This document shows, one piece after another, positions 1,683 to 33,181 of a stretch of DNA of 42,173 bases (position 1 is the stretch's first letter; each line of letters opens with the position of its first letter). A program made the position numbers and the translations under genes. The DNA is from Caryophanales bacterium (lineage in GTDB: Bacteria > Bacillota_I > Bacilli_A > RF39 > UBA660), in assembly GCA_016288305.1 (NCBI GenBank), contig JAEEYW010000033.1, positions 1-42,173 of the forward strand, read 5' to 3'. Below the pieces are notes generated by a model. The model saw only the letters and a list, made by a program, of their open reading frames with translations. It ran no database searches and was not told the DNA's origin.

Positions 1683-4064
1683 TTATATCTTACTAACATA
1701 TTCCAATAAATTTAAGAATAATTTAACAAATTTATTTTCCAAACCTTTGTTACCTAACTTACGCATCGCAATACGTTTTTTCTTAATAGGCATATCACTA
1801 AATAAAACAGCATCGACTTTTTCTTTCATCAGTGTTTCAATTTGCAAGTCAGATAAAATATTTTCAATCTCATCATTGATGATACGTGTTGCATCAACCA
1901 ATAGATCATTACCCTTACATGTAATAATTAATTGTGATATAGTTCTAATATCATTAATTTCAATAATAAAATCAGAACCAGATACATAAGCTTTATAATT
2001 TATTTTCTCATTACCTTCATAAACAGCCACTTCTGCTTTTTTAGTGTTTCTAAAAACAATTTTATAATTTCTATATTCTGGTATAATACCACTTTTACCT
2101 TCTAAAGCTTTAATCGTAACCTTGTACTCATCAGGGTTATAGTCATAAACAATCTTAGACAATAAATAATAACCTTTCTTATACATATCTGATACGCCAT
2201 CATCTTCATATAATAAATATTCATTACTTACGCCTGGAAAGAAATGTATTTCCATATTTTTAGGTGATGAAGTATCATTAATATCATCATTACTACCCAT
2301 AGGTATAATACTACCCGCTTTAGCAAAAACAGGATATTGTTGATCTTTATAGAAAGATATATATTTGCTATCACCTAAAAACTTTTTACCTGTAAAGAAA
2401 TCATACCAAATACCAGCAGGAAGATAAAATCTATGAGCAACCCTATCCATGACATAATCCTTACTCTTCGTTATAGGAGAAACAAATAACTGACTACCAA
2501 AATAATATTCACTATTATATAAAACATCATCATACATTTCAGGAACCTTATAATATAAAGGTTTAATTAAAGGCACACCATGTTGTGAATAACGATATGC
2601 TTCACTATATAAATATGGTATTAAGCGATGTCTTAATTGTAAATAATCTTTAACAATATTTAACGTTTTTAAATTCCAACGCCATGGCTCTCTTTTATAA
2701 TATTTACCACAATCTGCACCAAATTTTAAAATAGGAGAAAATGTACCTAATTGAACATATCTTGTATATAATTCATTATCCTCCATACCCTTATAATAAC
2801 CACCGATATCGTGCCCCCACCAACTAATACCTAAATTAGCAGCATCAGCATTAAAACGTGGTATTTGTTTTAAAGAATCCCAACTAACTAAAGATTTACC
2901 AGGATATAAAACAGGATAACGATGTTGCGCTAAACCATTGTAATAACCAAATATCATTGGTCTACGTTTATTATCCCTAGTAATATCATTATATTGATAA
3001 TATTTAAGATAATAATCATCAAAAGCATGTGGTCTATCAATCCAATAGAAATCAACACCTAAATTATCCAAAGGATGAATATAAACCTTTAAATAAACAT
3101 CTATCCACTTAGGATCCAATACATTATATGGAATAACGCCATTACTATCTGTTTGCAAGTACTTTACAGCTTGTTGATATCCATCATCAATGTTATAAAA
3201 ACCCTCTTCTGGATTTAAATTTAAACCAACACTAATATTTTTAGAATGTAAATAAGAAATCATCTCACGAGGAGCTTTAAATAACTCTTTATTAAAAGTA
3301 AACCCTGTCTTTAAATGATTCGTTTTATCATATGTACGAACATGCCAATCCTTATCCAATAATAAAACAGATAAAGGTATATTATTATTTTCAAAATTAT
3401 CCATTAACAATTTTAAAGAACCATCATTATAATCATCATTTTTACTCCACCAATTACCTAAAGCATAACGTGGAATTAAACCAGGATGACCCGTTAAAGC
3501 AAAATAATCCTTTAAACATTCAGCAAAATCATTTAAATATACAAATAAATATATATCAATATCAGCATAATTATCACTTAGAGTTCCATCCTTATTAATA
3601 ATTTTATTTTTAGCGTCATCTAAAGTAACAAAACCATCTAAAGAATATAAACTTTTAGTACTTATTATTTTGCCCTTTTTCTTACCATTTTCAATTCTTA
3701 TAGGAACACTAAAGTTTTTAGCTTCAACATTTTTATAATACCAACTTCTATCAGTATTTAAAACATCAACTTTAAAATTCTTACTATTTAATTTTTTCTC
3801 TTTCGTATAATATAATTTAAAATATGATGTTGATATTTCAAGATAATTTGCGTCCTCATTAACTGTAAACTCAGGCTTAGGAAAATTTCTATTAATAACC
3901 AAAGTTGTAGGTTCAGAAACAAAGTTTTGATTTTCACTATATTCAATTCTGATAAGTCGTTCTGTTAAAATAGTAAAACGATAGTTTTTACCAGCTTTAA
4001 CACATTCGGGATTAGACGTAGCCTTATCATAATCTACTTTAAACTGATTCCCCAAATTATACAT
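1683..4064 (-). CDS. Glycoside hydrolase family 31 (alpha-glucosidase/xylosidase-like)
   Basis: A 793-residue cytoplasmic protein (no signal peptide) of the GH31 retaining alpha-glycosidases. The N-terminal beta domain covers about residues 1-190, the TIM barrel 195-500 (ALGNWWSKNDDYND at 201-214), and C-terminal beta domains follow. VDFYWIDRP (337-345) holds the expected nucleophile Asp343, SLVSWDS (391-397) the expected acid/base Asp396, and WWGHDIGG (415-422) the family signature. The nucleophile context WIDRP differs from the usual WxDMNE, so substrate cannot be inferred; glucosidase, xylosidase and N-acetylgalactosaminidase activities all occur in GH31. It follows the pyruvate-kinase-like gene by 14 bases with ribosome site AAAGGTGGTG. 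A tail of about 60 basic residues (VDAVLFSDMPIKKKRIAMRKLG and after) is extra relative to the usual domain ending. Confidence 0.9.
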   Translation of the reverse strand: MYNLGNQFKVDYDKATSNPECVKAGKNYRFTILTERLIRIEYSENQNFVSEPTTLVINRNFPKPEFTVNEDANYLEISTSYFKLYYTKEKKLNSKNFKVDVLNTDRSWYYKNVEAKNFSVPIRIENGKKKGKIISTKSLYSLDGFVTLDDAKNKIINKDGTLSDNYADIDIYLFVYLNDFAECLKDYFALTGHPGLIPRYALGNWWSKNDDYNDGSLKLLMDNFENNNIPLSVLLLDKDWHVRTYDKTNHLKTGFTFNKELFKAPREMISYLHSKNISVGLNLNPEEGFYNIDDGYQQAVKYLQTDSNGVIPYNVLDPKWIDVYLKVYIHPLDNLGVDFYWIDRPHAFDDYYLKYYQYNDITRDNKRRPMIFGYYNGLAQHRYPVLYPGKSLVSWDSLKQIPRFNADAANLGISWWGHDIGGYYKGMEDNELYTRYVQLGTFSPILKFGADCGKYYKREPWRWNLKTLNIVKDYLQLRHRLIPYLYSEAYRYSQHGVPLIKPLYYKVPEMYDDVLYNSEYYFGSQLFVSPITKSKDYVMDRVAHRFYLPAGIWYDFFTGKKFLGDSKYISFYKDQQYPVFAKAGSIIPMGSNDDINDTSSPKNMEIHFFPGVSNEYLLYEDDGVSDMYKKGYYLLSKIVYDYNPDEYKVTIKALEGKSGIIPEYRNYKIVFRNTKKAEVAVYEGNEKINYKAYVSGSDFIIEINDIRTISQLIITCKGNDLLVDATRIINDEIENILSDLQIETLMKEKVDAVLFSDMPIKKKRIAMRKLGNKGLENKFVKLFLNLLEYVSKI

Positions 4065-4078
4065 CTATATCACCACCT

Positions 4079-5488
4079 TTATATTTCTTCTATTTTCATA
4101 AAATTAGTATGCTTTACCTTTTTAAATGGATATCCTCCTGTTATTATAATTTTATCCTTAGGCTGTAACATTAAAAAATCAACAGCTATCTTTTTACTCT
4201 TTTCTATAATAGCATCAGAAGTTTTCATTTCATTAATTAATAATGGTACAACACCAAAATTAAGCGCTAGAGACTTAACTGTATCAATATTAGGACTAAC
4301 AGCTATAACAGGACAAAAAGGTCTAAATTTAGAAATCTTTTTAGCTGTATAACCACTCATAGTTGGCGCGAAAATAGCTTTACATTTTAAACGTTCCGCA
4401 CAAGTTGCTACACTATAAGCTAAAGAACTGGTTATATCAACATCCTCTTCCTTCATAGCTTCGTCAATCATATTATCATAATTGATATCCTTTTCTGCGA
4501 TACTAATAACACGTTCTAAAGTTTTAAGCGTCTCAACAGGATATTTACCCATCGTTGTCTCACCACATAAAACAATAGCATCAGTACCATCCAAAACCGC
4601 ATTAGCAATATCTGAAACCTCAGCTCTTGTAGGTTTCTCACTATTTATAAGCGTTGATAATAACTCGGTTGCAACAATACCTATAACACCTTTTTCATGG
4701 CATTTTTTAATAATACGTTTTTGAATACCAGGTATTCTTTCAATACTTACCTCACTACCCAAATCACCACGTGCTATCATAATACCATCAGATACTTTAA
4801 GTATTCTATCAATGTCATCAATAGCAGCTTTATTTTCAATAATAGATATTATCTGCATATGCTCATTCTTTAAATTTATCAATAAATCATTAACCTCTAA
4901 AACATCTTCATAATCAGAAACATAAGATAATGCTAAAAAATCAACATTCATCTGATGAGCAAACTTAATAGTTTCTTTATCAAAACTATTTAAGAAAGGT
5001 CTATTTAATTTAACGTCAGGTATATTAATACTATTATTATCTTTAATATAACCTTCTTTTAAAACCTTACACAATAAATAATCATAACCCTTATCAATTA
5101 TTTGTAATTCAACAGTACCATCATTAATAGTTATAAAATTACCAATTTCAACTTCATTAACTAAATTATAATCAACGCTAAATTTAGTACTATCACCAAT
5201 AACATTATCCATAAAGATTCTTATTTTATCATTTTGTTTTAAAAAAGTCCCACCATTACTTATATGGTTAATTCTAACCAAAGGACCTCTTGTATCCAAC
5301 ATAACACTTGCATAAGTGTGTAATTCCGCATTTATTTCATTTATTTTATTTATAATATCACGACAAAAATCAAATGTTGCATAACTCATATTAATACGAA
5401 CAACATCTGCTCCGTTAATGATTAAAGATTTCAATATTTCTTTACTAGTAGTAGGACCTACTGTAGCAATAACCTTTGTTTTATTCAT
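4079..5488 (-). CDS. Pyruvate-kinase-like protein lacking the catalytic lysine
   Basis: A 469-residue, full-length homologue of pyruvate kinase, which makes ATP and pyruvate from phosphoenolpyruvate. Retained: KTKVIATVGPTTS (3-15), VVRINMS (29-35, Arg31 and Asn33), DTRGP (65-69), the metal ligands Glu218 and Asp242 (IIEN, ARGDLG), VATELL with Thr274, and PTRAEVSDIANAVLDGTD. Lost: the K of the invariant KIEN motif is Ile216 (IIEN), the potassium-site Glu after DTKGP is Leu70, and FSH is MSY. The lysine is needed for phosphoryl transfer in known enzymes, so normal kinase activity is doubtful. It is first gene of the operon with the GH31 glycosidase, behind a strong promoter. Either it has another activity (enolisation, sensing) or a true pyk exists elsewhere; I therefore give no gene symbol. 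Confidence 0.85.
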   Translation of the reverse strand: MNKTKVIATVGPTTSKEILKSLIINGADVVRINMSYATFDFCRDIINKINEINAELHTYASVMLDTRGPLVRINHISNGGTFLKQNDKIRIFMDNVIGDSTKFSVDYNLVNEVEIGNFITINDGTVELQIIDKGYDYLLCKVLKEGYIKDNNSINIPDVKLNRPFLNSFDKETIKFAHQMNVDFLALSYVSDYEDVLEVNDLLINLKNEHMQIISIIENKAAIDDIDRILKVSDGIMIARGDLGSEVSIERIPGIQKRIIKKCHEKGVIGIVATELLSTLINSEKPTRAEVSDIANAVLDGTDAIVLCGETTMGKYPVETLKTLERVISIAEKDINYDNMIDEAMKEEDVDITSSLAYSVATCAERLKCKAIFAPTMSGYTAKKISKFRPFCPVIAVSPNIDTVKSLALNFGVVPLLINEMKTSDAIIEKSKKIAVDFLMLQPKDKIIITGGYPFKKVKHTNFMKIEEI

Positions 5489-27435: not shown

Positions 27436-28815
27436 TTATTTTTTAATTGCTTTAGATAAATAACCTTTTTTCCTTATTAGGACTTCACTACTATCGTATT
27501 TATTATTAATATTTGTATAAATAGTAGAAGCTAAAGTATAAGCATTACCAAAAACCATTGTGAAATTATCTTTTTTAAAAATAGGATCAATAACAAGTAC
27601 TGGCAATTTACCAGATAAGTTAACATAAGCTTTCATAAAATTATCAACACTTATTTCTTTCTTCATACCATATAAAGAAGATATAAATAAACTTACTTTA
27701 TTGCCAACACATATATCATGTACGGCACCTATTAATTTATCCAAATTAGTTAAATTATCAGTTAATTCCTTAACTGTTTTAGCATTTTCAATATGATAAT
27801 CAATAACTATTAAATCATATTCAGAATTAACAATTATGTCATTAATTTTCTTTAAGCTAAAATCAACATCAACACGAGCATATGAAATATTAGGATCAAT
27901 ATCATTAACTAACCCATTATTCAAATAATTAATTTGTGGCATATAAGCAGGTGTCGTTAAAACTAGTGCCTTAGCATTAATAGATTTTAATGAATTACTC
28001 ATAGAATCCTTAGAGATAGGATAATTATACATAGGGTATTTAATGCCCTTTAAAGGAAACATTGAATAAAACTTAACATCAGGTGTTATAGAAGAAATAT
28101 TCATAATTAAATTACTTGCATCTACGTAATCATAATTAAATATAAAATATGAATCATTACTATCTATTTTAAATCCTTCGTTAACATAAAACTCTTTAGC
28201 GTTACAAGGCATAGTTTTAGAAGACAATAGTGAGCTAAATTTACGAGCTGCATCTTTCCATGTTTCACCAATACTATTTTTAAGCATATTCATATAATTA
28301 TTTAAATCATTACCAAAAATAACATTCTTACCTACTATTGTTGCAATTGTACAATCATAATCATAAGCAATTTTAGATACAAGATGCTCTAAATCTTTAT
28401 AATTATCAATATCTTGTGAAGATAAAATAATATGTAAAAAGATAGGGTTTTGTTTTTTATTTCTTATAAATCTTATAAAGTTTTTTAAATACTCTAAATT
28501 TTTTTCATTTTCTAAATACATAAACAATTGAATTCTTGAATCACCAATATTACTCAAATAAAATTTCATATTATTATCACGTTCAAATTGTTCCATATGT
28601 CTATCTAATAAAGCATAAGTCAATGGATACTTATTACCTGTACTAAATAATCTATAACCATCAATAAAATTATATTCTGAACTTTCTATTGTTGAAAACA
28701 AATATCTTTTAATATATCCATCCAAATTAGGCATCAATTTAGCGTTATATATACTATATGAATCGGCTTGTTCAACACCAAAACCATTCATTAGAAATAA
28801 AACTGTTTTTTTCAA
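27436..28815 (-). CDS. iPGM-derived pseudoenzyme (phosphoglycerate mutase fold, active site lost)
   Basis: A 459-residue protein that follows cofactor-independent phosphoglycerate mutase from end to end but lacks its metal centre. The DGFG opening is NGFG (Asn10); the GNSEVGH segment with the phospho-serine is GNKYPLT (Lys62); HAFLDGRD is HIILSSQD (128-135); IATVSGR-YYAMDRD becomes IATIVGKNVIFGND; the NYANxDMVGH region becomes DYHIENAKTV; TADHGNAE becomes SSLYGMKK (379-386). Every residue that binds manganese or carries phosphate is changed, so mutase activity is very unlikely. Yet the frame is intact, with TTG start, strong GGAGGGG ribosome site and consensus promoter, so it is kept and expressed. 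A sensor, scaffold or regulatory role is possible; a normal PGM should exist elsewhere. Confidence 0.82.
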   Translation of the reverse strand: MKKTVLFLMNGFGVEQADSYSIYNAKLMPNLDGYIKRYLFSTIESSEYNFIDGYRLFSTGNKYPLTYALLDRHMEQFERDNNMKFYLSNIGDSRIQLFMYLENEKNLEYLKNFIRFIRNKKQNPIFLHIILSSQDIDNYKDLEHLVSKIAYDYDCTIATIVGKNVIFGNDLNNYMNMLKNSIGETWKDAARKFSSLLSSKTMPCNAKEFYVNEGFKIDSNDSYFIFNYDYVDASNLIMNISSITPDVKFYSMFPLKGIKYPMYNYPISKDSMSNSLKSINAKALVLTTPAYMPQINYLNNGLVNDIDPNISYARVDVDFSLKKINDIIVNSEYDLIVIDYHIENAKTVKELTDNLTNLDKLIGAVHDICVGNKVSLFISSLYGMKKEISVDNFMKAYVNLSGKLPVLVIDPIFKKDNFTMVFGNAYTLASTIYTNINNKYDSSEVLIRKKGYLSKAIKK

Positions 28816-28875: not shown

Positions 28876-28905
28876 TTAAAAAAGTTGAAGCATTAACTTC
28901 AACTT
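28876..28905 (-). terminator. Terminator of the T-box-hisS-aspS operon
   Basis: Stem AAGTTGAAG/CTTCAACTT with a 6-base loop and six U on the minus strand. The aspS stop (28904-28906) is in the stem. Confidence 0.9.
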
Positions 28906-30214
28906 ATGGATTTAATCTATTTGGTCCTCTAAATAAGAATTGTGTTTCTTTTAAATTAGGTAAACCTAATAATAACATTGTAATTCTATCTAAACCAATG
29001 CCAAAACCACCATGTGGAGGACAACCATATTTAAAGAATTGTAAATAGAATTCTACATCTTTAGTTAATCCTTTTTCTTGAGCGTTTTTAGCAAGTTCTT
29101 CATATCTATGTTCTCTTTGAGCTCCAGATGTTATTTCAACACCTCTCCAGATTAAATCGTATCCTTGTAAAGCACCATCTTTTCTCATATGATAAAAAGG
29201 TCTTTTAGTTGCTGCATATCCAGTTACAAACATAAACTCAGAATTATATTTCTCCATAGCATATTTGTATATCAATTTTTCTGTTTCAGCATTAGTATCA
29301 CCAATATCATGTTCAGGGATAGTATAACCATATAATTTATTTAATTCACGATATAAATCTTGTAAATCCATTCTTGGAAATGGCTTAGTTGGAACAACAA
29401 CATCAATACCAAAAACTTCTTTTATTCTATCGCCATAAACTTCTTTAACTTTAGTTAAACCAGCTATTAACAAATCTTCTTCGACACTCATAACATCTTC
29501 ATATGAAGAAATATGCGCAAATTCTAAATCGAAGCCTGTAAACTCAGTAGCATGTCTATTAGTGTTTGAATTTTCAGCTCTAAATACAGGACCAACTTCA
29601 AATACTCTATCCAAACCAGCGGCTAAAGCCATTTGCTTATAAAATTGTGGTGATTGAGCTAAATAAGCAGATCTATCAAAATATTTAACTTCAAATACTT
29701 CGGAACCTGATTCAGATGCTGTACCAATCAATTTAGGTGAATGTATTTCTACAAATCCTTCCTTGTATAAATACTCTCTCATACCCTGTTGCATTGTTGA
29801 TTCAACTAATCTAACTAAAGTATTTCGATCATTTCTAATATCTAACCATCTATAATCTAGTCTAGTATCAATATTAACACCTTCTAGATTATTATAATCA
29901 AATGGTAATTCAGAAGCTTTAGAAGTAACTTCGATATTAGTAGGTATTAATTCAATACCACCTAATTTAACAGCTTCATTAGCTACTACTTTACAAGTAA
30001 CTAAAACTGTACTATCTTTAGTAACATTAGACATAATACCTAATAATTTAGCATTATTTTCATCACTTTTTTCAATCGTCATTTGTACACGACCTGTATG
30101 ATCTTTTAAGATGACAAACATAACCCATTTTTTATCTCTTATAGCATCAACAAAGCCTGAAAATGTAACTTCTTTATCTATATATTTATTTAATTCATCT
30201 ACAAATACTTTCAT
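28904..30214 (-). CDS. aspS: Aspartyl-tRNA synthetase, archaeal/eukaryotic type (AspRS2)
   Basis: A 436-residue class II synthetase of the short archaeal genre: no GAD insertion, which bacterial AspRS (about 590 residues) carries. OB-fold anticodon domain about 1-110; catalytic domain with LDYRWLDIRN, SPQFYKQMALAAGLDRVFEVGPVFRAENSNTNRHATEFTGFDLEF (motif 2) and FKYGCPPHGGFGIGLDRITMLLLGL (motif 3) and the ending GPNRLNP. Enzymes of this genre in Bacteria are often non-discriminating and make Asp-tRNA-Asn for the GatCAB amidotransferase; I cannot tell from sequence which this is. It starts 2 bases after hisS and ends the T-box operon. Confidence 0.95.
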   Translation of the reverse strand: MKVFVDELNKYIDKEVTFSGFVDAIRDKKWVMFVILKDHTGRVQMTIEKSDENNAKLLGIMSNVTKDSTVLVTCKVVANEAVKLGGIELIPTNIEVTSKASELPFDYNNLEGVNIDTRLDYRWLDIRNDRNTLVRLVESTMQQGMREYLYKEGFVEIHSPKLIGTASESGSEVFEVKYFDRSAYLAQSPQFYKQMALAAGLDRVFEVGPVFRAENSNTNRHATEFTGFDLEFAHISSYEDVMSVEEDLLIAGLTKVKEVYGDRIKEVFGIDVVVPTKPFPRMDLQDLYRELNKLYGYTIPEHDIGDTNAETEKLIYKYAMEKYNSEFMFVTGYAATKRPFYHMRKDGALQGYDLIWRGVEITSGAQREHRYEELAKNAQEKGLTKDVEFYLQFFKYGCPPHGGFGIGLDRITMLLLGLPNLKETQFLFRGPNRLNP

Positions 30215-30216
30215 AA

Positions 30217-31521
30217 TTATCCTTCCTCATGACAATGACATTCATCACAATCACATTCATCATTTAATTTTTCATCTAAATAATAAATCAAATAATCTAA
30301 TTCAATTTGTTCACTTTCTTGTGTATGGTTATTTTTAATTGTTACATAATTGTTTTTAACTTCATCTTCACCAATAATTATAATAAATTTACTATTTAAT
30401 TTATCAGCTTGTTTAAAATTAGACTTCATATTACGTGAACAATAATCAATATCAGTTTTAAAACCATTGAGTCTTAAATTAGTAGCTAAGCGTAAAGCAT
30501 ATTCTTTTTCTGCCTCATCCATATATGTGATATAAGTATCAACGCCATTATCTAAATTTAAATCAATATTCTCAGCATCTAAAGCATTTAAAATTCTTTC
30601 GACACCTAAAGCAAAACCAACAGCTGGTGTTTCAGGTCCATCTAAAGTAGCTACTAAATTATCGTATCTACCACCACCACATAAAACATTTTGACTACCA
30701 AAATCTTTTATTTCAGCAGAAACTTCAAAAACAGTATGTGTATAGTAATCTAATCCTCTTACAATATTTGGATTAACAACATATTCAATATCCATACTTG
30801 TTAAATATTTTTTAACATCTTCAAAATGTTTTTTACTCTCTTCATTTAAATAATCAATTGTTTTAGGTGCATTTTGCATTAACGTATTATTAGCATCTAC
30901 TTTACAATCTAATATTCTTAAAGGATTCTTTTCAAATCTATTATTACAATCCTCACATAATTCATTTAAATGTGGTTTGAAATATTCCATTAAAGCTTCT
31001 TTATATTTTAATCTTGATTCTGTATCACCTAAAGTATTAATATTTACCTTAACATTTTTAAGACCTAGCAATTTAAATAAATTAACTGGTATACTAATAA
31101 CTTCAGCATCAGCTAAAGCATCACTAGTACCTAATACTTCAACACCAAATTGATAGAATTCTCTAAATCTACCTGATTGTGGTCTTTCATATCTAAACAT
31201 AGGACCAAAATACCAAGCTTTAACTGGTACAGCATGATTACCATATAACTTATTCTCAATAAAGCTTCTAACAATACCTGCTGTTCCTTCTGGTCTTAAA
31301 GTCATATTTCTATCTGATCTATCTTTAAAATCATAAGTCTCTTTAGTTACAATATCACTTGTTTCACCTACACCTCTATGAAATAATTCACTAGCTTCAA
31401 ATATAGGTGTTCTAAAATATTCATAATTATATGCTTCCATCATATTTTTAAGCAATTCATGAAGATATAAAACTCTCTTATCATTAATTACATCGTATGT
31501 TCCTTTTGGTTTTTGTATCAT
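30217..31521 (-). CDS. hisS: Histidyl-tRNA synthetase with a Cys/His-rich tail
   Basis: A 434-residue class II HisRS. Seen: MIQKPKGTYDV at the start, motif 2 in LRPEGTAGIVRSFIE and FGPMFRYERPQSGRFREFYQFGVE, the histidine-A box RGLDYYTHTVFEV (usually YYTGTVFE, so Gly is His) and LGVERIL (motif 3). A short insertion near residue 190 shows LCEDCNNR with ILDCK. The C-terminal anticodon domain is followed by an added tail, NDECDCDECHCHEEG, with five... alternating Cys/His ligands that could bind a metal. The start overlaps the stop of the upstream ATPase-like gene as ATGA, with AGGAGG ribosome site; aspS follows after 2 bases. Confidence 0.96.
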   Translation of the reverse strand: MIQKPKGTYDVINDKRVLYLHELLKNMMEAYNYEYFRTPIFEASELFHRGVGETSDIVTKETYDFKDRSDRNMTLRPEGTAGIVRSFIENKLYGNHAVPVKAWYFGPMFRYERPQSGRFREFYQFGVEVLGTSDALADAEVISIPVNLFKLLGLKNVKVNINTLGDTESRLKYKEALMEYFKPHLNELCEDCNNRFEKNPLRILDCKVDANNTLMQNAPKTIDYLNEESKKHFEDVKKYLTSMDIEYVVNPNIVRGLDYYTHTVFEVSAEIKDFGSQNVLCGGGRYDNLVATLDGPETPAVGFALGVERILNALDAENIDLNLDNGVDTYITYMDEAEKEYALRLATNLRLNGFKTDIDYCSRNMKSNFKQADKLNSKFIIIIGEDEVKNNYVTIKNNHTQESEQIELDYLIYYLDEKLNDECDCDECHCHEEG

Positions 31522-32960
31522 AATCTTCCTCCTATTTTTCTTACTTTACTTTCCATTATGTCTTTTAAAGTATATTCTTTACCATCTTTTGTAATCAATA
31601 TGCATTCGCGATAATCATCAAATGCTTTCTTACCATAACAAATACCCGCATAATCTTTTTTATTATGCAAAACTTCCCATTCACTTTTATGCATAGCATT
31701 TTCAACAAGGAAAGATAATGACTTGGCTCCTTGTTTTAATTCTATTGCCTTGTCAATTATAGCATCAAGAAAGCCTTTTGTCCATCTTAAATCAATATTA
31801 ACATCTTTCAAAGCTGCTTTCTTATCATTCAAAATATTGGTTAAAAGCTTCCTAAAATCTTCTTTTGTTAATTCATTAAAATATGTAAAGATAGAAAACT
31901 TAACTAATAAATCAGTATAGTTCTGCTTTGTTATATTATTAGCGCTAGTACTTTGATATGGCTTATAATTAACAGAATTATCAATATATCCAATTGTACT
32001 TTTTTTAGCTACATCATCAAATGTTGCTATACCTAAAATAATTAAACTAGAAGTATCAAATGGAATAATATATTGCCCGAAATTGACATTATATGTTGTT
32101 TTTTCAAACAATTCATCTACTCTTTTTTTTACGCTATCATTAATAGATATATCTCGAGAGATACCATCAATTAGAATAATACCTCTTTGTGCTCTAGCAA
32201 TATCATTTGTTGATTGCATAATTAAACCAATTAATAAATTTTCCATTTCATATTTATGATTTATAAAATCTTTAATATCACATAAAACAATAGGAACATC
32301 TAAATACTCCGTTAAAGCAAATGCCATTGTATGTTTACCTACACCAGTAGGACCTACAAATAGACATGAGGGTTGACCAACTTTGTTAACGTTATTATTA
32401 AAGAAACCAACAATAATATCTTTTTTAACTTGTTCTTGTCCTATAACAGTTTTGTTCAAAAATTTAGCCATATTATGCACATTAATTTTCTTTTTTGTAT
32501 ATGATATTTGTTCAAGCTGATGATATGGTATAGATTGTTCACTAGGTAATTGTGGTTTAACTTCTTCCACCGCTTCACCTTGCAAAGGTACAATACCGCC
32601 CGATTCTGATTCATAACCTTCATATTGCCTGATAGCATCATTTTTGATAGCTGCGTTGTAAGCTTCATTAAGAAGATGAACTTTATCATTATAAAACCTA
32701 GTCAAAGCATTATTTTTACCATACTTTGCAAGTATATCTTTCTTAGCTGTTGGATAAAATACAGTTTGTGTTTCACCATCTTGCATTGCTTGTTTATCAT
32801 CATCTAAATAATAATAATGATTATCTTTAGTCACAAATAATTTCTTTTTACCATTTGTAACTGTATACCCTTCAACAGCCTTAATAGGTTTGAAAACATA
32901 TACCTGTGGCGTAATCTGACTTCTTTCCATAAGAATACCATATAATATTTCTTTTCCCAC
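31518..32960 (-). CDS. Degenerate ClpX-like AAA+ protein
   Basis: A 480-residue protein. The start is GTG at 32960, with AGGAGGG 6 bases upstream; the ATG at 32990 lies in the T-box terminator run and is rejected. Residues 1-140 have no family I know. From about 168 the sequence follows ClpX/Clp AAA+ proteins: FLNKTVIGQEQVKKDIIVGFFNN, Walker A GPTGVGKHT (Lys209, with His where Ser/Thr is invariant), LDVPIVLCDIKDF, then AQRGIILIDGISRD, where the Walker B Glu of IDEID is Gly266. Sensor 2 is GAKSL in place of GAR. The zinc-finger domain and the pore GYVG are missing. ATP may bind but hydrolysis is unlikely. It leads the hisS-aspS operon under the T-box, so its supply follows tRNA charging; role unknown. 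Confidence 0.82.
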   Translation of the reverse strand: MGKEILYGILMERSQITPQVYVFKPIKAVEGYTVTNGKKKLFVTKDNHYYYLDDDKQAMQDGETQTVFYPTAKKDILAKYGKNNALTRFYNDKVHLLNEAYNAAIKNDAIRQYEGYESESGGIVPLQGEAVEEVKPQLPSEQSIPYHQLEQISYTKKKINVHNMAKFLNKTVIGQEQVKKDIIVGFFNNNVNKVGQPSCLFVGPTGVGKHTMAFALTEYLDVPIVLCDIKDFINHKYEMENLLIGLIMQSTNDIARAQRGIILIDGISRDISINDSVKKRVDELFEKTTYNVNFGQYIIPFDTSSLIILGIATFDDVAKKSTIGYIDNSVNYKPYQSTSANNITKQNYTDLLVKFSIFTYFNELTKEDFRKLLTNILNDKKAALKDVNIDLRWTKGFLDAIIDKAIELKQGAKSLSFLVENAMHKSEWEVLHNKKDYAGICYGKKAFDDYRECILITKDGKEYTLKDIMESKVRKIGGRL

Positions 32961-32971
32961 AACAAACCCTC

Positions 32972-33181
32972 CTAAACAAAAAAAATCCATAAACTCTAAG
33001 GACTCATTGAAAGCGGTGCCACCTTAGTTTATAGATTTTAACTATACTCTTTATTCTCTATAACGTGAGATAACGATTACCATCGGTATTTAGTGTCTTC
33101 TTTAAAAAGTATTTAATGCTTTCACCACAACGCATCTTCTCTAAAAAATACTATTTCAAATACTCCTCTAAACAAGTAATT
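32972..33181 (-). promoter_or_regulatory. T-box leader of the ClpX-like-hisS-aspS operon, specifier GACAC
   Basis: Stem I can be drawn: outer GTATTT/AAATAC, inner AGTATTT/AAATACT, distal ATGC-GTTGTGGTGAAA-GCAT. The specifier side of the internal loop reads AAAGAAGACACT, so the codon position holds GAC (Asp, 33097-33095) overlapping CAC (His, 33095-33093). The T-box GGTGGCACCGC is at 33023-33013. The terminator pairs CTATAAACTAAGG with CCTTAGAGTTTATGG and ends in eight T. Confidence 0.93.

Follow-up and report, generated by a model that had tools for sequence, protein, structure and literature searches.

The window, by which we mean the whole analysed stretch of 42,173 nucleotides, comes from an uncultured bacterium with a genome of about 1 Mb. 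On its minus strand a T-box leader is followed by a gene for a ClpX-like AAA+ protein, then by hisS, then by aspS. The reading frame, its coordinates and strand, and its place at the head of a T-box/hisS/aspS operon are as an earlier sequence-only reading had them. The features of this operon, in the order of transcription, are:

32995..33179, minus strand: T-box leader of the transcription-attenuation type, before the AAA+ gene (RF00230, 84.4 bits, E 5.4e-19)
33093..33097, minus strand: specifier region GACAC, in which Asp GAC and His CAC overlap (from the sequence)
33013..33025, minus strand: T-box sequence AAGGTGGCACCGC, with a UGGC bulge, fitting a G73 discriminator
32982..33039, minus strand: terminator hairpin, then a T run (minimum-free-energy fold, in which AAAAUCUAUAAACUAAGG pairs with CCUUAGAGUUUAUGGAUUUU)
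32967..32973, minus strand: Shine-Dalgarno sequence AGGAGGG before the GTG (from the sequence; relatives have a similar site and spacing)
31518..32960, minus strand: clpX-like gene of a putative pseudo-ATPase, 480 aa, GTG start
30217..31521, minus strand: hisS (TIGR00442, 492 bits)
28904..30214, minus strand: aspS, nondiscriminating (Asp/Asn) type (NF003483, 448 bits, above cut-off)

The GTG at 32960 is backed as start codon by the AGGAGGG ribosome site and by alignment to the starts of relatives; the in-frame ATG further upstream (32990) falls within the terminator. At the other end, the stop codon of the AAA+ gene overlaps the start codon of hisS (ATGA), and hisS has a Shine-Dalgarno sequence of its own, GGAGGA, sited in the 3' end of the AAA+ gene.

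The leader scores slightly below the Rfam gathering score for RF00230 (84.4 against 93 bits); the leaders of relatives score 77-117 bits against the same model, five of them above 93. Its specifier region agrees with the downstream synthetases, GAC with aspS and CAC with hisS: GAC (Asp) is assigned as the specifier because, by rule, a purine follows it, and the leader is labelled Asp/His because CAC (His) overlaps GAC. The discriminator of tRNA-Asp is G73; the bulge of the T-box sequence is matched to it by the pairing rule between T-box bulge and tRNA discriminator (PMC7778990). The fold of the terminator region is overall not better than that of shuffled sequences (z -0.2) and is only consistent with a terminator. 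The RF00230 match (E 5e-19) and the GACAC specifier thus bear out the initial assignment of the gene as the first under an Asp/His T-box. Since the T-box precedes the gene, uncharged tRNA-Asp, and probably tRNA-His too, would relieve attenuation and allow the protein to be made. The leader shares its architecture, specifier, UGGN bulge and attenuation design with known T-box synthetase operons (RF00230), as well as the control of hisS and aspS; it differs from them in that the first controlled gene encodes an AAA+ protein.

The synthetase genes have a history of their own. Between the window hisS and that of genus mates the identity is about 32%, yet it reaches 63% with one extra copy in another genome of the genus (G008), which suggests that hisS has been replaced within the genus. 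Contamination of the bin is ruled out by the RlmN of this contig, which shares 73-80% identity with that of genus mates despite the divergent hisS. The type of aspS varies among such operons: at 28904-30214 (minus strand) it is nondiscriminating, and in many relatives it is of the bacterial type. Downstream of aspS, at 27436-28815 (minus strand), lies a gene for a 459-aa protein with a weak match to TIGR01307 (phosphoglycerate mutase, E 3e-4) and without a Pfam domain.

A divergent ClpX-like family

Few bacterial unfoldases are as conserved as ClpX. In Pfam and NCBIfam searches the C-terminal two thirds of the window protein fall in the ClpX branch of the AAA+ proteins, and ClpX is at the top of the PDB sequence matches; the cut-offs for ClpX are far from reached, with 71 bits against 370.75 for TIGR00382 and 81 bits against 359 for NF003745. 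The protein has two recognizable parts:

32646..32960, minus strand: N-terminal domain common to the family, residues 1 to about 105 (leave-one-out profile, E 4.4e-17; alignment)
31521..32483, minus strand: ClpX-type AAA+ large and small domains, residues ~160-480 (PF07724 and PF00004 above cut-off; NF003745, E 9e-23)

Within the bacterial family to which the window belongs, 221 of 386 genomes have matches with E < 0.001, the weak ones including other AAA+ proteins; from these loci about 105 ClpX-like relatives with intact motors were collected, most of them ~450-760 aa long. Leave-one-out profiles place the window protein in this family, through the N-domain and, with E 2.3e-87, through the full profile. 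The N-terminal region, at first thought to match nothing known, is thus the N-domain of a wider ClpX-like family; an orphan N-terminus is ruled out, as the profile of this domain matches 61 of the 117 collected sequences. The domain finds nothing in Pfam and nothing significant in a PDB profile search.

The canonical ClpX cut-off is reached in none of the 193 genomes sampled in the order; across the class it is reached in 31 of 100 sampled genomes, none of which belong to the family of the window bacterium. ClpP was found in all 22 genomes checked. Apart from the divergent form, no ClpX-like protein was detected in the group. Beyond the group, a scan of GTDB contigs for close relatives returned only one canonical ClpX, and the matches examined on viral contigs are canonical ClpX, with the N-terminal zinc-binding domain; a search of these contigs with an intact family member found none.

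AlphaFold, given an alignment of ClpX proteins, yields a confident ClpX-like AAA+ core for the window protein, with 214 residues at pLDDT >= 90, and the matches listed in a fold search with this model are all ClpX chains. An alignment of this composition favours a ClpX result, and the model is therefore compatible with a ClpX AAA+ fold of the core rather than proof of it. For the N-domain, prediction from the single sequence gives a pLDDT of 37 and is not interpreted. By these comparisons the window protein resembles canonical ClpX (TIGR00382/NF003745) in its predicted AAA+ fold, in domain order, in the position of an IGF-like loop and in its best PDB matches by sequence and fold; it differs in its N-domain and in the lack of the zinc-binding C4 domain (it has no N-terminal cysteine cluster). 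From the divergent relatives, with which it shares the N-domain, AAA+ core and C-terminal region, it differs in length as well: the nearest ones have ~640-760 aa and carry a long insert, nearly absent from the window copy, that separates the N-domain from the AAA+ core.

Motor and core of the window copy

The window copy departs from both canonical ClpX and its own family most conspicuously in the motor, where Walker A, Walker B, pore loop, Arg finger and sensor 2 are all affected. Counted from the GTG at 32960, the relevant positions are:

32331..32354, minus strand: Walker A GPTGVGKH, residues 203-210, with His210 for Thr/Ser
32241..32255, minus strand: pore-1 loop, HKYEMEN for the family's GYVGxxxED
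32157..32183, minus strand: Walker B GIILIDGIS, with Gly266 for the catalytic Glu; the following Asp-Lys-Lys is gone too
31986..31994, minus strand: IGF-type loop, here IGY, a candidate ClpP contact (aligns with the I/L/V-G-F of most relatives)
31899..31901, minus strand: Arg-finger position, Lys354 (Arg is invariant in the 30 relatives compared)
31722..31724, minus strand: sensor-2 Arg replaced by Lys413, GAKSL for GARSL

The alignment confirms that the His of GPTGVGKH (H210) and the Gly of IDGIS (residues 264-268) are non-canonical, as first noticed; that count of losses was too low, as the GYVG pore loop, the Arg finger and sensor 2 are altered as well. The pore loop retains its Tyr, its flanking glycines are gone and three residues are deleted. 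The P-loop Lys and the Walker B Asp are kept. We infer from these residues that the protein cannot plausibly hydrolyse ATP. Of the original suggestion that it binds ATP without hydrolysing it, the second half thus stands; the first is optimistic, in that the Walker A His would also threaten Mg-ATP binding.

None of this is a property of the family. Homologues with intact Walker residues, which the sequence-only reading had named as evidence against its proposal, number about 105, and a dead ATPase is for this reason a trait of the window copy and a few others. Of the 105 reference relatives only L169, with Asp, lacks the Walker B Glu, and the Ser/Thr of Walker A and the Arg at the Arg-finger position are kept; the exceptions to the rule of an intact motor are the window copy, L054 and the L119 pair.

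Outside the motor the picture is different. The window copy keeps 97.2% of 72 conserved hydrophobic core positions, against a median of 97.3% in the 105 intact relatives and 43% for the query composition, in alignments that contain the query and may thus slightly inflate the core matches. Of the conserved polar and Gly positions it keeps 11 of 26, against 21-26 in the relatives, and of 61 conserved columns it has lost 29, where each of its 30 nearest relatives has lost 0-13; no branch of the tree is longer than its end branch, at 1.81 changes per site against a median of 0.37. The frame is open across all 480 codons, while simulated unconstrained mutation at 5% substitutions per base introduces a mean of 5.4 stops and leaves the frame intact in 0.5% of trials. 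GC1/GC2/GC3 are.415/.281/.158, like those of the neighbouring genes in the window. Frame, codon bias and core conservation speak against neutral decay. We read this pattern as that of a protein selected for its fold and not for ATP-driven threading; a kept core with a lost motor is more suggestive of a pseudo-ATPase than of a gene in decay. This exact gene is known from a single sequence, and most genus mates are without the gene altogether.

Association with synthetase genes and T-boxes

Among the 111 collected family members, 30 are directly flanked on the same strand by hisS or aspS (hisS immediately downstream in 12, aspS or hisS immediately upstream in 18), and the other 81 are located elsewhere in the genome. 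The association is strong and not universal: the gene is not always beside hisS-aspS, as had been asked at the outset, and its location is also far from random.

Several relatives share the operon order of T-box, clpX-like gene, hisS and aspS. A T-box stands ahead of the ClpX-like gene in 9 of the 12 cases with hisS downstream, namely in the window and in eight relatives (L027, L028, L043, L055, L089, L091, L103 and L180); in L089 it precedes a two-gene AAA+ block. Seven of the nine leaders have GACAC or GACAT as their specifier region: GACAC in the window and four others, GACAT (Asp GAC/His CAT) in two. The specifier of L055 is GAT. L027 (genome G128) has separate T-boxes, at 3720-3900 and 1215-1400, for its clpX-like gene and for hisS; the specifier region before the clpX-like gene is not GACAC (GAAAGUAGCU), and the hisS T-box has GACAC. 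In two hisS operons (L089 4450-5940 and L108 1684-3195) the ClpX-like gene is preceded by one for an AAA+ protein with the same N-domain, which we take, from reading its sequence rather than from a family search, to be CbxX/SpoVK-like.

In a whole group where ClpX was detected only in a divergent form, the repeated occurrence of that form by hisS or aspS, several times with a T-box ahead of it, suggests that tRNA charging and ATP-dependent proteolysis are connected; we found no description of such a link. The literature search returned no paper on ClpX as a pseudo-ATPase and nothing recognizably on a clpX-like gene under a T-box; the matches that came closest to the latter subject looked, by title and abstract, unrelated.

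Interpretation and other dismantled copies

The window gene is best explained, with reasonable though not high confidence, as a pseudo-ATPase: a fast-evolving descendant of the divergent ClpX that, in this explanation, takes the place of the canonical one in the group. The protein is probably not a working unfoldase but a 'dead' motor put to a new use. The same copy is altered at Walker A Thr and Walker B Glu, in the pore loop, and at both the Arg finger and the sensor-2 Arg, and it retains the hydrophobic core, the N-domain, an IGF-like loop, a frame that is open and of normal codon bias, the ribosome site and the T-box; ATP hydrolysis and substrate threading would thus have been lost. Judging from the T-box, uncharged tRNA-Asp, and probably tRNA-His, would lead to the pseudo-ATPase being co-produced with HisRS and AspRS. 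Speculatively, it would then work through binding: most likely ClpP, or an Hsp100 partner such as ClpC, would be its target, on which it would serve as a cap, adaptor or competitor that does not hydrolyse ATP; alternatively it would be a scaffold via its N-domain. A role on the ClpP side is the first candidate because of the IGF-type loop and because the genome also encodes ClpP, ClpC and a third Hsp100-type gene; the IGY loop makes a contact to ClpP possible.

The main competing view is that the gene is a decaying relic. The genus would then be able to dispense with ClpX activity, and the frame would stay open only because the gene heads an essential synthetase operon, in which a premature stop or a frameshift would cut the expression of hisS and aspS (ATGA overlap, shared transcript). 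The absence of the gene from most genus mates fits dispensability, and the longest branch of the tree and a frameshifted copy in another genome (G335) point the same way. Such polarity, however, guards the frame and not the hydrophobic core, of which 97% is kept; hisS has its own Shine-Dalgarno sequence; and a useless 1.4-kb gene could be deleted, other members of the genus living without it. Core conservation thus argues against a relic, which we consider fairly unlikely, although a single sequence cannot decide. A pseudo-ATPase could also act without ClpP, its N-domain binding something linked to translation, such as a synthetase or tRNA, and its dead AAA+ part serving only as an oligomeric scaffold. 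The recurrent linkage of the family to hisS/aspS (30/111), the CbxX/SpoVK-like AAA+ proteins of two such operons, to which the same N-domain is fused, and the imperfect IGF loop speak for this reading; against it, 81 of 111 family members are elsewhere in the genome. We regard it as distinctly unlikely, with the proviso that it overlaps the preferred explanation, so that the confidences do not sum to one. It is very improbable, finally, that the protein is altered yet active, a still ClpP-dependent ATPase in which compensating changes allow slow ATP binding and hydrolysis: P-loop Lys, Walker B Asp and pore Tyr are kept, and Arg finger and sensor 2 have undergone a conservative R to K change, but these two have changed simultaneously with Walker A Thr, Walker B Glu and the pore-loop glycines, and we know of no active AAA+ unfoldase with this combination.

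On the preferred reading of a pseudo-ATPase, a copy with dismantled motor and preserved core would offer a natural experiment on the capabilities of an unfoldase that hydrolyses no ATP. Similar dismantling at two further synthetase-linked loci, in G335 and G008, speaks for this reading. The aspS-linked copy of G335 (L054) has lost Walker B Glu and GYVG loop, as well as Arg finger and sensor 2 (both by R to K), and keeps 98.6% of core positions; its counterparts in G156 and G259, two other genomes of the same genus, are intact. G008, from the window's own genus, has a tandem pair after aspS with 'HD' in Walker B and no Arg finger, whose cores are kept at 83% and 90%. The losses in the window, G335 and G008 look like separate events, the deep placement of such long branches being uncertain. 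It is unlikely that a ClpX variant in the Asp/His T-box synthetase operons of this bacterial group, converted more than once to a non-hydrolysing pseudo-unfoldase, constitutes a regulator of Clp proteolysis controlled by tRNA charging.

The tandem degenerate ClpX-like ORFs of G008 (L119) lie at 3218-4186 and 4155-5141, after aspS and near a 6S RNA. In G335 (L116, upstream of 6030, minus strand) the N-domain of the motor-dead copy is frameshifted at a run of eight A, either by a real break or by an assembly error.
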